From: Streptomyces sp. CA-210063
GTDB lineage: Bacteria > Actinomycetota > Actinomycetes > Streptomycetales > Streptomycetaceae
DNA length: 64,000 nucleotides
Direction: 5' to 3'
Assembly (NCBI RefSeq): GCF_024612015.1
Contig: NZ_CP102512.1
Coordinates: 3,348,001 to 3,412,000 of the forward strand
In this document: piece after piece, positions 6,936 to 15,369 of the stretch
Position numbering within the stretch: the stretch's first letter is position 1
Layout: each line of letters opens with the position of its first letter
Made by a program: the position numbers and the translations under genes
The notes under the pieces: generated by a model
What the model saw: the letters and a program-made list of their open reading frames with translations, nothing else
Told to the model about the DNA's origin: nothing
Database searches by the model: none

Positions 6936-8153
6936 TCAGCTGCTGCGACGCGTCACGAACTCGGCCAGCGCGAGAAGCCCGCCGGCCGACTCCGGGTCCG
7001 GTACCGCACGGGACAGTTCGTGCATGGCCCGGGCCATACGATCGGCCGCCTGGATCTGCGCCCAGTCACGACCACCGGCCCGCTCCACGACCAGCGCCGT
7101 ACGCTCCAGGTCCCCCTCCTCGTACGGCAGCCCGTACAACTCGGCGAGTTCGGCGGCCTCCGGGGTGCCGGAGGCGAGCGCGGCGACCACCGGGAGGGAC
7201 TTCTTGCGGACCATGAGGTCCGCCCCGGCCGGCTTGCCGGTGCGGCTCGGGTCCCCCCAGATGCCGATCACGTCGTCGATGAGCTGGAAGGCCAGCCCGG
7301 CCTCCCGCCCGAACGCGTCGAGGGCCTGGACGTCCTCCTCACCGGCCCCCGCGTACAACGCCCCCAGCGCGCAGGCGCAGCCGAGCAGCGCGCCCGTCTT
7401 CGCCTCGGCCATGGCGAGCACCTCGTCGAGGGTGACGTCCTGCGGACGGCGTCCTTCCATCTCGGTGTCCGTGTGCTGTCCCGCGCACAGTTCGACGACA
7501 CAGGACGCGAGCCGCGCGGCGGCCGCCGCCGACGCCGGATGCGGGTCCTCAGCGAGCAGCTGCTGGGCCAGGGCCTGCAGCGCGTCCCCGGCGAGGATCG
7601 CGTCGGGGATCCCGAACACGGTCCACGCGGTGGCCCGGTGCCTGCGGGTGGTGTCCCGGTCCATCACGTCGTCGTGGAGCAGCGTGAAGTTGTGCACCAG
7701 CTCCACCGCCGCGGCGGCCCGTACGGCGGCGGACTCGCGGCCGCCGAGCGCGGCGACCGCGGCCAGGACCAGCGCGGGCCGTATCGCCTTGCCCGCGTTC
7801 CCCGCGGCCGGTGTGCCGTCCGCGTGCTCCCAGCCGAAGTGGTAGCGCGCGACCCGGCGCATCGAGCCGGGCAACGACCCGACGGCCCGGCGCAGTTCGG
7901 GGTCGACGGACACCCGCGCCTGCTCCAGGATCTCCGCCGCCTCCTGCCCGTCGAACGCACTCACCGCCCCCGACCGACCGACCGGCCCCCGAACACCGGC
8001 AGCAGCCCCTGGCATCACCGGCCCCACCGCATCGGCCGACTCCCCACCCTCCGCCGATTCACCGACTCCAGCCGAATCCCCGCCGCTCTCCGGATCCACG
8101 GCCCTCGCCGGCTCACCGACTCCCGCCGATCGCGCCGCTCCCGCCGAGCCCAC
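6936..8153 (-). CDS. Polyprenyl (geranylgeranyl-type) diphosphate synthase next to encapsulin
   Basis: A trans-isoprenyl diphosphate synthase: it condenses isopentenyl diphosphate with an allylic diphosphate. Both aspartate-rich motifs are present, DDVMD (in LLHDDVMDRDTTRR) and DDVIGIWGD (in FQLIDDVIGIWGDP), plus the GKAIRPALV motif. The catalytic part begins near GQEAAEILEQARVS. The start is uncertain: GTG 8276 overlaps the encapsulin stop, GTG 8153 (used here) gives 405 residues, ATG 8015 gives 359, GTG 7964 gives 342. Third-position GC is low upstream of about 7960 and a hairpin lies at 8222-8257, so the Gly/Ala/Ser-rich N-terminus may be translated disordered tail or untranslated. Family 2B encapsulins are known to be encoded beside polyprenyl synthases, whose disordered N-termini direct loading. 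Confidence 0.85.
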   Translation of the reverse strand: MGSAGAARSAGVGEPARAVDPESGGDSAGVGESAEGGESADAVGPVMPGAAAGVRGPVGRSGAVSAFDGQEAAEILEQARVSVDPELRRAVGSLPGSMRRVARYHFGWEHADGTPAAGNAGKAIRPALVLAAVAALGGRESAAVRAAAAVELVHNFTLLHDDVMDRDTTRRHRATAWTVFGIPDAILAGDALQALAQQLLAEDPHPASAAAAARLASCVVELCAGQHTDTEMEGRRPQDVTLDEVLAMAEAKTGALLGCACALGALYAGAGEEDVQALDAFGREAGLAFQLIDDVIGIWGDPSRTGKPAGADLMVRKKSLPVVAALASGTPEAAELAELYGLPYEEGDLERTALVVERAGGRDWAQIQAADRMARAMHELSRAVPDPESAGGLLALAEFVTRRSS

Positions 8154-8221
8154 CGCTCCCGTCGGGTCTGCGGGACTCGTGATGGGGCTCCGCCTTTCCG
8201 GGATCTCGCCTTGCAGAGTCC

Positions 8222-8257
8222 CGCCGTGTCCCCGCCCTGACGGGCGGGGACACGGCG
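8222..8257 (-). terminator. Perfect 16-bp hairpin between encapsulin and polyprenyl synthase
   Basis: GCCGTGTCCCCGCCC-type arm (8222-8237), 4-base loop, and exact complement (8242-8257). It begins 15 bp after the encapsulin stop on the minus strand. No U-run follows, but such hairpins act as terminators or mRNA 3'-end stabilisers in Streptomyces. It would let the shell gene be expressed far above the enzyme gene. Confidence 0.7.
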
Positions 8258-8272
8258 TCCGGTCGGACAAGG

Positions 8273-9679
8273 TCACCGCCAGCGGCCGATCTCGACGTTC
8301 TCCAGAACGCCGAGCGCGTCGGGGACCAGGACCGCGGCCGAGTAGTAGGCCGTCACGAGGTACTTGATGATCGCCTGTTCGTTGATGCCCATGAAGCGCA
8401 CGGACAGGCTGGGCTCGATCTCGTCCGGGATGTTCGCGGCCCGCAGACCGATGACGCCCTGGTCCTCCTCCCCGGTACGCATGGCGATGATCGACGTGGT
8501 CCTGGCCTCGGTCACCGGGATCTTGTTGCACGGGTAGATCGGCACGCCGCGCCAGGTCGGGATGCGGTTCCCGGCGATGTCGATGGTCTCGGGGACGAGT
8601 CCGCGCTTGTTGAGCTCGCGGCCGAACGCGGAGATCGCGCGCGGGTGGGCGAGCAGCAGCTTGGTGCCCCGGCGGCGGCTGAGCAGTTCGTCCAGGTCGT
8701 CGGGGCTGGGCACGCCGTCGTGCGGCTGGAGCCGCTGGTCGTACTCGCAGTTGTGGAGGAGGCCGAACTCGCGGTTGTTGATGAGCTCGTGCTCCTGGCG
8801 CTCCTTCAACGCCTCGACGGTCAGCCGGACCTGCTGCTCGGTCTGGTTCATCGGCTGGTTGTAGAGGTCGGCCACGCGCGTGTGGATGCGCAGCACGGTC
8901 TGGGCGACGCTCAGTTCGTACTCGCGCGGCGCGGCCTCGTAGTCGACGAAGGTGTGCGGGATGTCCGGCTCACCGCTGTGGCCGGCGGCGAGGTCGATCT
9001 CCTTCTCGCCGTACTTGTTGGTGCGCTGCGACGGGATGGAACGCTGCTCCTGAAGGTGCTCGCTCAGGGTCTCGGCGCGCTCCGAGATCTGCTCGACGGC
9101 CGCACGCGGCAGGACCAGTACCGTGCACGCGGTGACCGCGCGGGCCGTGTACTCCCAGATCGCGTCGGGGTCGAGCAGCGACTGGTCGCCGAAGTAGGCC
9201 CCGTCTGCCAGCACACCGAGGACCGCGTCGTCGCCGTAGGGTCCGGTGCCGATCTTCTCGACCTTGCCGTGCGCGAGCAGGAACACCTCCTCGGCATGGC
9301 TGCCGAACTCGGCCAGCACATCACCGGGCGAGAACTCCCGCTGCTCGCACCGCTGGGCCAGCTCGCCCAGCACGTCGATGTCCTCGTAAGTCCGCAGGGC
9401 CGGCAGTTCGCCCAGTTCGGCGGGGATGACGGCGACCCGGTCGCCGGTCTTCACAAAAGTGACGCGGCCGTCGCCGACCGCGTAGGTGAGCCGCCTGTTC
9501 ACCCGGTATGTGCCACCCTGCACGTTCACCCAGGGCAGGGTGCGCAGCAGCCAGCGGGAGCTGATCTCCTGCATCTGTGGTGTGGACTTCGTGGTGGTGG
9601 CCAGGTTGCGGGCAGCGGCCGTGCCGAGACTCTGCTGCGGCCTGTCCTGCTGCGAGCGAACCTCTTCGCCTACCGACAT
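8273..9679 (-). CDS. Family 2B encapsulin shell protein, EshA-like, with cyclic-nucleotide-binding domain
   Basis: A 468-residue protein. Residues 1-99 and about 215-468 match the HK97-type shell fold of EshA-like proteins (N-arm with [21 protein letters not shown]- and A-domain segments [29 protein letters not shown]-terminal [19 protein letters not shown]). A cyclic-nucleotide-binding domain is inserted at about 100-210 ([20 protein letters not shown]). In its phosphate cassette, [20 protein letters not shown], the usual Glu is Asp while the Arg is kept, so nucleotide affinity is uncertain. EshA of S. griseus affects sporulation; relatives build empty or cargo-filled nanocompartments. The downstream polyprenyl synthase is the probable cargo. 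A 292-bp upstream gap separates it from the divergent amidase gene. Confidence 0.9.
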
Positions 9680-13450: not shown

Positions 13451-13801
13451 CCCGAAGGAGCCGATCGGACCCGAACAGGACCCCTCCGAACACGTCCGCG
13501 ACGTCGTACGACGGAACCATGTCACCCCGTGACACGTCGACGTACTCGTGTGACAAGGTTCGGCAGTCCGACGCCTGGGTACGTCAATCCGGCGCGCGCT
13601 CTTCCTATTTGAGGCCCGCAGACCTCTAGCCACCGAGCGTATTCATAGGCTTACTATGAGTGACAGCATGGGGTGGGGTCTCCAGGACCCTGAGGACACG
13701 GCACTCGGGAGCGCGATAGCGTCACCGCTGAACCACGTAGCGCATTACCCGGGGGGCGACCCTCGGCCCCCGAAGAAGCTTGTACCACCTTGGAGGTGAG
13801 G
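13451..13801 (+). promoter_or_regulatory. Upstream control region of the anti-sigma/sigH operon
   Basis: A 350-bp non-coding stretch. It contains an inverted repeat GTCAC-CCC-GTGAC at 13521-13533, an AT-rich patch CATAGGCTTACTATGA (about 13645-13660) that could hold a -10 element, and the strong ribosome site TTGGAGGTGA just before GTG 13802. In S. coelicolor several stress- and development-controlled promoters lie here (knowledge); I cannot assign individual ones. Confidence 0.5.
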
Positions 13802-14215
13802 GTGTCCCAGATCGCAGGCGAGCCCGGGACCCAGGACTTCGTGGAAGTCCGGCTGCCGGCCGCGGGTGCCTACCTGTCGGTGCTGCGTACGGCGACGGCC
13901 GGCCTCGCGGCCCGTTTGGACTTCACCCTCGACGAGATCGAGGACCTTCGCATCGCGGTCGACGAGGCCTGCGCGATCCTGCTCCAGCAGGCCGTGCCCG
14001 GCTCGGTGCTGAGCTGTACCTTCCGCCTCATCGACGATTCGCTGGAGGTCACGGTGTCGGCCCCCACCACGGACGGCCACGCCCCCGCACGAGACACCTT
14101 CGCCTGGACCGTGCTGTCGGCCCTGGCGGGCAAGGTCTCCTCCGCGGTCGCCGACGACAAAACCGTTTCGATCAGCCTCTACAAACAGCGCGGCGCGGGA
14201 CCCGGGCCGGCGTGA
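13802..14215 (+). CDS. rshA: RsbW-like anti-sigma factor homologue (PrsH/RshA/UshX type)
   Basis: A 137-residue HATPase_c-fold protein of the RsbW/SpoIIAB class. The N-box region reads VDEACAILLQQA near residue 60, so the family's usual Asn is missing, and no clear glycine-rich ATP lid is present; kinase activity is therefore doubtful although sigma binding may remain. GTG 13802 follows TGGAGGTGA. Its TGA overlaps the GTG of the sigma factor gene, which points to translational coupling. It corresponds to the anti-sigma homologue encoded before sigH in S. coelicolor. Confidence 0.88.
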   Translation: MSQIAGEPGTQDFVEVRLPAAGAYLSVLRTATAGLAARLDFTLDEIEDLRIAVDEACAILLQQAVPGSVLSCTFRLIDDSLEVTVSAPTTDGHAPARDTFAWTVLSALAGKVSSAVADDKTVSISLYKQRGAGPGPA

Positions 14216-15369
14216 GGAACGGGGACGGTCCGGTGCGGGACGAAGAACGCGGCACACGGGAACTTCCCGCGGAGGATGACGGCGGTCCGAGTGGACCGGC
14301 GCATCTGGCGGACGGCGTCGACGGCATCCCCGAGCAGGCCCGGCCGCACCCGGAGGACGACTCCTCGGCGGCGGCCGGAGCGTCTCGGTGGGCGGAGCCG
14401 GCCGACGGCGAGGAGCGCGAGGCGCTCTCCGACGGGCAACGGGATCCGGAGAGTGCCCTACGGAGCACCACGTCCTCACGAGGGCGGACTGGGGCCTCCC
14501 CCGCTCGAGCACAGTCGAGAGCTGGGGGAACGGTGACGGCGGGCGGGACTATGAGCGAGCACGAGCGACACGACGAGGCGGGCGCGCAGAGCGTGCGAAG
14601 CACGCAGCACGACCCTCAGGACCGCAGCGGGGCGCGAGCCCTGTTCGTACAGCTGCGTGCCCTGCCGGACGGCAGTGCCGAGTACGCGGAGCTGCGCAAC
14701 CGGCTGGTCCGGATGCATCTGCCGCTCGTGGAGCACCTCGCACGCCGCTTCCGCAACCGCGGCGAGCCGCTGGACGACCTGACGCAGGTCGCCACCATCG
14801 GCCTGATCAAGTCGGTGGACCGCTTCGACCCGGACCGCGGCGTGGAGTTCTCCACGTACGCGACCCCCACGGTCGTCGGCGAGATCAAGCGGCACTTCCG
14901 CGACAAGGGCTGGGCGGTGCGGGTGCCGCGCCGGCTGCAGGAGCTGCGCCTCGCGCTGACCACGGCCACGGCCGAGCTGTCCCAGCAGCACGGCCGGTCC
15001 CCGACGGTGCACGAGCTGGCCGAGAAGCTGGCCATCTCGGAGGAGGAGGTCCTGGAGGGCCTGGAGTCGGCCAACGCGTACTCCACGCTGTCCCTGGACG
15101 TCCCCGACACCGACGACGAGTCACCGGCCGTCGCGGACACGCTCGGCGCCGAGGACGAGGCACTGGAGGGCGTCGAGTACCGCGAGTCCCTCAAGCCGCT
15201 GCTGGAGGACCTCCCGCCCCGGGAGAAGCGCATCCTGCTCCTGCGCTTCTTCGGCAACATGACCCAGTCGCAGATCGCGCAGGAGGTCGGCATCTCCCAG
15301 ATGCACGTCTCCCGCCTGCTGGCGAGGACGCTGGCACAGCTGCGCGAGAAGCTGCTGGTGGAGGAGTAG
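14212..15369 (+). CDS. sigH: Stress sigma factor SigH (SigB/SigF family)
   Basis: The sigma core (last ~260 residues) has region 2 (RMHLPLVEHLARRFRNRGEP to VEFSTYATPTVVGEIKRHFR), region 3 and region 4 (MTQSQIAQEVGISQMHVSRL). In front lies a ~113-residue acidic, low-complexity extension if translation starts at GTG 14212; ATG 14551 would give a 272-residue core form. SigH of S. coelicolor is known to be made in several lengths and to be processed by proteolysis, so both starts may be used. The same frame stays open upstream through the whole anti-sigma gene to 13780. A dispersed palindromic repeat lies in the extension at 14495-14529. It directs osmotic-stress and septation genes. Confidence 0.9.
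   Translation: MRNGDGPVRDEERGTRELPAEDDGGPSGPAHLADGVDGIPEQARPHPEDDSSAAAGASRWAEPADGEEREALSDGQRDPESALRSTTSSRGRTGASPARAQSRAGGTVTAGGTMSEHERHDEAGAQSVRSTQHDPQDRSGARALFVQLRALPDGSAEYAELRNRLVRMHLPLVEHLARRFRNRGEPLDDLTQVATIGLIKSVDRFDPDRGVEFSTYATPTVVGEIKRHFRDKGWAVRVPRRLQELRLALTTATAELSQQHGRSPTVHELAEKLAISEEEVLEGLESANAYSTLSLDVPDTDDESPAVADTLGAEDEALEGVEYRESLKPLLEDLPPREKRILLLRFFGNMTQSQIAQEVGISQMHVSRLLARTLAQLREKLLVEE
14495..14529. repeat. Palindromic repeat inside the sigH N-terminal extension
   Basis: CCTCCCCCGCTCGAGC followed by ACAGTCGAGAGCTGGGGGA forms a hairpin. A close relative stands between genes at 63611-63645. Here it lies in frame, 21 bp before the ATG at 14551. Confidence 0.7.

Follow-up and report, generated by a model that had tools for sequence, protein, structure and literature searches.

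The window analysed here, a 64,000-nucleotide stretch at positions 3,348,001-3,412,000 of the 10.86-Mb single-contig genome of Streptomyces sp. CA-210063, carries on its reverse strand a two-gene operon in which the gene of a family 2B encapsulin shell protein is followed by that of a polyprenyl diphosphate synthase. Judged from their sequences, the two genes are a real and well-conserved case of a known kind of nanocompartment, and chance need not be considered as an explanation. Established here are the families to which the two proteins belong, the linkage of their genes, their co-inheritance, the absence of the canonical phosphate-binding arginine from the cyclic-nucleotide-binding (CNB) domain of the shell, and the predicted disorder of the synthase tail. 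We consider it likely, with a probability of roughly 0.78, that the operon encodes an encapsulin compartment in which the synthase is held as cargo inside the shell and makes a linear product, and in which the CNB domain gates metabolite flow or docks partners. The gene pairing itself has been in print since 2021, and the operon in the window is an ordinary further case of it. Its value lies in an asymmetry of loss among relatives, with nine shells lacking the synthase and one synthase lacking the shell, and in a corrected argument on the ligand of the CNB domain.

On this interpretation, the shell protein would self-assemble into a T=1-type shell of the HK97 fold, by analogy with its solved homologues, and the synthase would be kept within the shell by its disordered N-terminal tail. 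The enzyme would join isopentenyl diphosphate to allylic diphosphates, and the resulting linear chain would most probably be the C20 compound geranylgeranyl diphosphate. The CNB domains, which in solved relatives lie outside above the two-fold pores, could gate the flow of metabolites or dock partner proteins, and their trigger would be something other than a cyclic nucleotide. Translational coupling together with an intergenic hairpin could set the shell-to-cargo ratio, giving many shell subunits and few synthases.

Identity of the Shell Protein and the Synthase

The shell protein reaches 769.2 bits against the family 2B encapsulin model NF041163 (cut-off 400). Its SrpI-like HK97 domain (PF19307) covers residues 216-466 with 453.1 bits, and a CNB fold (PF00027) lies ahead of this core match at residues 114-200; the location of the insert in the E-loop is taken from homologues. 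Nearly the whole protein aligns end to end with the solved 2B shells 9bhu, 9bix, and 9bje, with scores reaching 645.7 bits, and SrpI is also among its PDB matches. Its closest relatives are found in S. caniscabiei, S. europaeiscabiei, and S. scabiei. Mean identity of relatives to the window shell is 90.1% over residues 1-70, 75.6% over the CNB part, and 92.3% over the HK97 part, the CNB part being the least conserved of the three measured. Its motif is RRR, as in the Sl-Enc2 type, and not TVWK, as in Sl-Enc1; Sl-Enc2 is reported to assemble alone (PMC12407261).

The synthase lies in an open frame at 6936-8531 of the reverse strand, contains the Pfam polyprenyl synthetase domain, and passes the model of family 2 encapsulin cargo of the polyprenyl transferase kind (NF041169) with 496.6 bits against a cut-off of 450, the match beginning at residue 198 of the open reading frame (ORF). 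AlphaFold gives residues 108-443 a confident, nearly all-helical synthase fold. The best PDB fold match is 3nf2 (E 7.1e-20), a polyprenyl synthetase of S. coelicolor with 43% identity, followed at ranks 2-4 by geranylgeranyl diphosphate synthases. All 18 aligned sequences, that of the window included, have Phe and Thr at positions -5 and -4 from the DDxxD motif; this pair ahead of the first Asp-rich motif suits a C20 product. A scan of the neighbouring ORFs found no terpene cyclase and no methyltransferase beside the shell, and of the six places in the whole genome that match the terpene synthase C-terminal domain, none falls within the window. The product is predicted to be linear, most likely C20 geranylgeranyl diphosphate.

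The original prediction, made from the letters of the window, had placed a 2B shell directly upstream of a trans-prenyl synthase on one strand at 6936-9679, with an HK97 fold interrupted by a CNB insert, and had proposed comparing both proteins with family 2 encapsulins. The span is right, the comparison took both proteins over their curated cut-offs, and the fold assignment agrees with the two Pfam domains and the three solved 2B shells. The absence of an adjacent cyclase or methyltransferase, from which a linear diphosphate had been proposed, holds for the ORFs scanned, and a linear product is likely. The association of 2B shells with polyprenyl synthases, which had been described as known, was indeed printed in 2021 for about 900 operons (PMC8346489).

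Co-inheritance of Shell and Synthase

Of the 80 closest named loci, 78 have the synthase adjoining the shell, the two exceptions being L031, which ends at a contig edge, and L019, from a metagenome-assembled genome, which is without the synthase. Among 247 Streptomyces genomes, 191 pass the cargo model, and 190 of these 191 have a shell at least 70% identical to that of the window. The 190 comprise the own genome, G043, 40 of 40, 73 of 75, and 73 of 74 others, and G123 and G212, where the shell is left merely as a piece at a contig end. Adjacency of the two genes was confirmed by eye in all five genomes compared (G009, G012, G022, G103, and G237). The pair is common in Streptomyces, and natural experiments found here include shells without a synthase, a synthase without a shell, and one shell whose neighbour is a terpene cyclase.

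The one synthase without a shell is that of G073 (locus L115), where the synthase and its neighbours are kept, and no shell was found in the 13 kb read, nor at E 1e-215 genome-wide. Its tail, counted from the GTG to a conserved VDP block, has 25 residues and is the shortest of the set, the shortest paired tail having 28 (L085). Loss of the tail in this synthase was considered and rejected by this count, the tail being present and the shortest of the set (25 residues against 28-281).

Start, Tail, and Possible Expression Signals of the Synthase

The synthase start is uncertain because the frame stays open upstream, within the shell gene. On comparison with relatives the likeliest start is the GTG at 8276, whose bases overlap the stop codon of the shell: six of them (L013, L040, L042, L052, L053, and L055) have a frame without any ATG ahead of the core and a GTG solely at or just ahead of the shell stop. 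Codon-position G+C gives a weak coding signature at 8276-8019; in 54 relatives, likewise, the tail shows a weaker signature than the core. A perfect hairpin past the shell stop falls inside the synthase frame if the start is at 8276. Stems of at least 7 bp within 60 nt past the shell stop are present in 53 of 79 loci, compared to 28.9 expected from dinucleotide shuffles. Shorter versions of the 16-bp hairpin recur in many relatives.

Residues 1-107 of the synthase are predicted by AlphaFold to be disordered, with a per-residue confidence score (pLDDT) below 50, and the length of this tail depends on which start is used. Among relatives the tail is highly variable in both length and sequence. 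Paired tails measured from the first ATG to the VDP block have 28-281 residues with a median of 59; this count excludes 3 of the 79 loci, in which the core pattern was unmatched, seven have no ATG, and one value of 1 is an artefact of the pattern. An ER[RHQLK]-x-[IV]-type motif is found in 30 of the 79 tails, whereas residue shuffles predict 2.0; 56 of the 79 have an MTE-like motif. Both counts are inflated by shared ancestry. A universal targeting motif was looked for in the tails and not found. The extreme of tail variation is the synthase of L029, whose tail (from 11548) contains a tandem peptide repeat of the PAPRPETPPLHG type.

Is the Synthase the Cargo of the Shell?

The synthase is the presumed cargo of the shell, as known here from genes and predictions, and several observations weigh against the proposed reading of the operon. 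The literature searched, with most subscription papers outside its scope, held neither encapsulation nor product data for polyprenyl cargo. For the shell, the AlphaFold model is of low quality (mean pLDDT 54); it was rejected as proof of the HK97 fold and its fold matches to shells were not used, so that the claim of this fold depends on the homology of the sequence with shells of known structure. Against the geranylgeranyl diphosphate synthase model IdsB the synthase scores below the cut-off (368.3 against 475), so that the C20 product is no more than likely. No short motif is common to all 79 tails, and the 2021 survey likewise found no targeting motif for polyprenyl transferase cargo (PMC8346489). 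The hairpin is not universal among the 79 loci. The short tail of the shell-less G073 synthase is no more than a hint of a role in loading, with a margin of three residues. In addition, the shell is intact and full-length in nine of the 247 genomes although no intact synthase adjoins it there.

The missing motif and the silence of the encapsulin literature searched would suit a pair that is only co-transcribed, with the synthase free in the cytosol and the shell storing nothing or something else. This is improbable in view of the near-complete co-inheritance (190/191). Moreover, in one system of family 2A the cargo is reported to be loaded through its unannotated N-terminal domain (PMC8346489, PMC8229669), a precedent for a synthase carried inside the shell by its tail.

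Relation to Known Encapsulins and to the Paralogue EshA

About 900 operons of 2B encapsulins with polyprenyl transferases have been reported, 888 of 900 in Actinobacteria (PMC8346489, PMC8049743). They have the same gene pair, the same CNB fold, and a disordered N-terminal region of the synthase (PMC8346489, PMC8049743), and no essential difference from the window operon is apparent, the latter having a single shell gene and a likely synthase start that overlaps the shell stop. Sl-Enc1 and Sl-Enc2 of S. lydicus (9bje and 9bix) have the 2B fold in common with the window shell, which has the RRR motif of Sl-Enc2 (PMC12407261); the S. lydicus system has two shell genes per operon, whereas the operon here has one.

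The other system for comparison is EshA (SCO7699), which adjoins SCO7700 and SCO7701 and is the shell of a 2-methylisoborneol operon (PMC5839063); in S. venezuelae the corresponding operon is eshA-mibA-mibB (PMC6428758). It is likewise a 2B shell with a CNB insert. The EshA operon holds the 2-methylisoborneol genes, whereas no adjacent terpene cyclase or geranyl diphosphate methyltransferase was found for the window shell. The own genome has two 2B shells over the cut-off, 6.3 Mb apart, and a third partial match of 44.4 bits below it. The second shell, at 9.66 Mb (L114, 9.655-9.672 Mb), is 57% identical to that of the window; after it come a terpene synthase domain and a geranyl diphosphate 2-C-methyltransferase, the latter over its cut-off. 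By its content, L114 appears to be a 2-methylisoborneol-type operon, the cyclase being assigned by a domain match. Since this locus holds the EshA-type shell, the window shell is a paralogue. The original prediction had called the window shell EshA-like, which is apt for a family 2B shell with a CNB domain but not for EshA proper, the 2-methylisoborneol shell of the type found at 9.66 Mb. The match of 645.7 bits to the window shell is that of 9bhu, which we take to be the 2-methylisoborneol shell of S. griseus.

The window shell is probably an orthologue of EshB (SCO5249) of Streptomyces coelicolor, an assignment that we base on the order of genes around sigH and not on sequence comparison. 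This probable link to EshB, a paralogue of EshA, would connect a long-known differentiation phenotype with a metabolic compartment.

Shells without a Synthase

Twelve of the 56 genomes below the cargo cut-off hold a shell at least 77% identical to that of the window, the next best of the 56 being 68% identical. In three of the twelve (G218, G205, and G161), a diverged or shortened synthase adjoins the shell. The remaining nine are orphans: the synthase is absent from the same gene neighbourhood in G134, G228, G005, G240, and G150, synthase remnants stand beside intact shells in G226 and G096, and the shells of G048 and G197 (L108 and L109) lie in other neighbourhoods. The genome G043, whose synthase is over the cut-off with its neighbours in the frame, was counted as paired. 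The orphan frames have no internal stop and match the window shell over full or nearly full length. The remnants at L102 and L103 are different pieces of the synthase in each. Relocation of the synthase in orphan genomes is not favoured, as the best cargo matches of all 56 genomes fall between 3.7e-118 and 1.4e-131; this range includes the 44 genomes without a shell of this type, and in G218 and G161 the match is the adjacent copy.

Such orphans would be odd if the shell existed solely for polyprenyl synthase cargo. They raise the possibility that the shell has a job of its own, as a developmental or signalling scaffold, which the ppGpp and differentiation phenotypes of the paralogue EshA suggest, and that the synthase is one optional passenger. 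We regard this as possible but rather doubtful. On a tree of 95 shells, built by a quick method without bootstrap, the ten orphans (the nine and L019) require 8 changes, at least 4 of which are forced by well-supported branches; with shuffled labels the mean is 9.6 changes, and 21 of 500 shuffles are as low as 8. EshA is described in a review as essential for adequate ppGpp synthesis and important in differentiation (PMC6627660), but as a paralogue its phenotypes need not carry over. The 190 genomes with both genes stand against the nine orphans. In addition, the cargo model finds two or more matches in each of the 247 genomes, so that loading of another synthase in trans is conceivable.

The orphans could also be relics on the way to loss, and the ratio of nonsynonymous to synonymous differences (pn/ps) bears on both sides of this question, although as a pairwise and not branch-specific measure it is no proof of function. 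For paired shells, excluding L031 at its contig end, pn/ps averages 0.169, 0.266, 0.256, and 0.376 over consecutive ps bins that span 0.1-0.5. The five recent orphans (L019, L101, L102, L103, and L105) show 0.10-0.20 against their nearest paired shells, inside or below the paired range, the comparison of L101 with L029 (ps 0.083) lying below the lowest background bin. The group L110-L112 shows 0.198, 0.271, and 0.294 within itself and 0.27-0.37 against paired kin. Higher values are found for L108 and L109: 0.32-0.39 when compared with paired kin and 0.39-0.47 when compared with other orphans. Some of these exceed the 95th percentile of paired shells, which is 0.377 for ps of 0.3-0.4. These ratios suggest that most orphan shells are without clear relaxation and that two, L108 and L109, may be relaxed.

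The shell of G048 (L108:3730-7539), 80% identical to that of the window, adjoins not the synthase but a 775-amino-acid two-domain terpene cyclase, which comes near the cut-off of another encapsulin-cargo model (1175.8 against 1200 bits). This proximity favours an independent role of the shell, and a swap of partners at L108 is possible. Ten proteins were scanned, nine of them from orphan loci, and a GNAT enzyme recurs in four (L101, L105, L103, and L019); the rest comprise a terpene synthase, a transcription regulator, a RibD-type domain, DUF6304, and a sigma factor.

The Cyclic-nucleotide-binding Domain and Its Ligand

The original prediction had argued from an Asp in place of the usual Glu in the phosphate-binding cassette that the ligand may differ from cAMP. 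The argument falls and the conclusion stands. The column of Asp165 is Asp in 60, Glu in 33, and Gly in 1 of 94 related shells, the nearest relative of the window shell has Glu there, and the two residues alternate among the nearest kin (Asp in the window, Glu in L009-L011, Asp in L012-L013), so that Asp165 was rejected as a ligand switch. The case for a ligand other than cAMP comes instead from the absence of the canonical arginine. Residues 170-179, where the phosphate-binding Arg would be expected, contain no Arg in 92 of 94 shells, and Trp175 is constant in all 94. In the register assumed here for CRP, Trp175 and Glu176 occupy the places of the canonical Arg and small residue. Alignment of the shell with a cGMP-dependent kinase leaves a gap at the region of the phosphate-binding Arg. 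Together with this absence, family 2B CNB domains, which lie over the two-fold pores of the shells, are reported not to bind cyclic nucleotides (PMC12407261). That the domain nevertheless binds cAMP or cGMP and thereby switches the opening of the pores is suggested by its fold, which is a CNB fold by PF00027 and by the fold matches of this part, but the missing Arg, the constant Trp175, and the reported lack of binding make this very improbable.

Among the fold matches of the CNB part are cAMP-independent trypanosome kinase subunits, which hints that domains of this kind may accommodate other ligands. One of these was solved with a ligand whose name begins with 'ino' and which we take to be inosine. 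These matches are a precedent for sensing of a neutral ligand, and a further view of the shell can be proposed, in which the EshB-type shell is a conserved Streptomyces organelle that stays under constraint although its prenyl synthase has been lost repeatedly, can take on another terpenoid enzyme, and senses a neutral ligand such as a nucleoside, not a cyclic nucleotide, through CNB domains that lack the phosphate-binding Arg. We hold this to be unlikely; if true, the cargo would be optional and the shell the regulator.

Features and Gene Neighbourhood

The features of the operon are collected in Table 1, together with the GNAT genes of the orphan loci.

Table 1. Positions of the features discussed (window coordinates unless a locus is named)
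Feature	Position	Strand	Evidence or remark
Family 2B encapsulin shell, 468 amino acids	8273..9679	-	NF041163, PF19307, PF00027, PDB matches
Shell parts: N-terminal ~1-70; CNB-fold insert ~95-212; HK97 domain ~216-468 (residues)			
Polyprenyl (probably geranylgeranyl) diphosphate synthase, 446 amino acids if GTG start	6936..8276	-	NF041169, AlphaFold, 3nf2
Degenerate phosphate-binding cassette, shell residues 162-185	9125..9196	-	Trp175, Glu176
GTGA overlap of synthase GTG and shell TGA stop	8273..8276	-	Sequence; translational coupling predicted
Alternative synthase start ATG	8016..8018	-	Leaves 36 residues ahead of conserved VDP block
Perfect 16-bp hairpin, 4-base loop	8222..8257	-	15 bases past shell stop
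GNAT acetyltransferase gene after shell	L101:7629-8240; L105:5443-6039; L019:3702-4316; L103:8131-8892		Loci without intact synthase

The neighbours common to most loci are a pyridoxal phosphate-dependent enzyme (75/88), a Na+/H+ exchanger (70/88), and a sigma factor (70/88), in a set of 88 that includes eight short loci from the own genome. The sigma factor gene of the window, of the SigB/SigF type, lies near the shell operon at 13780-15369 and is present in most relatives; it is possibly, as we assume, a SigH orthologue.

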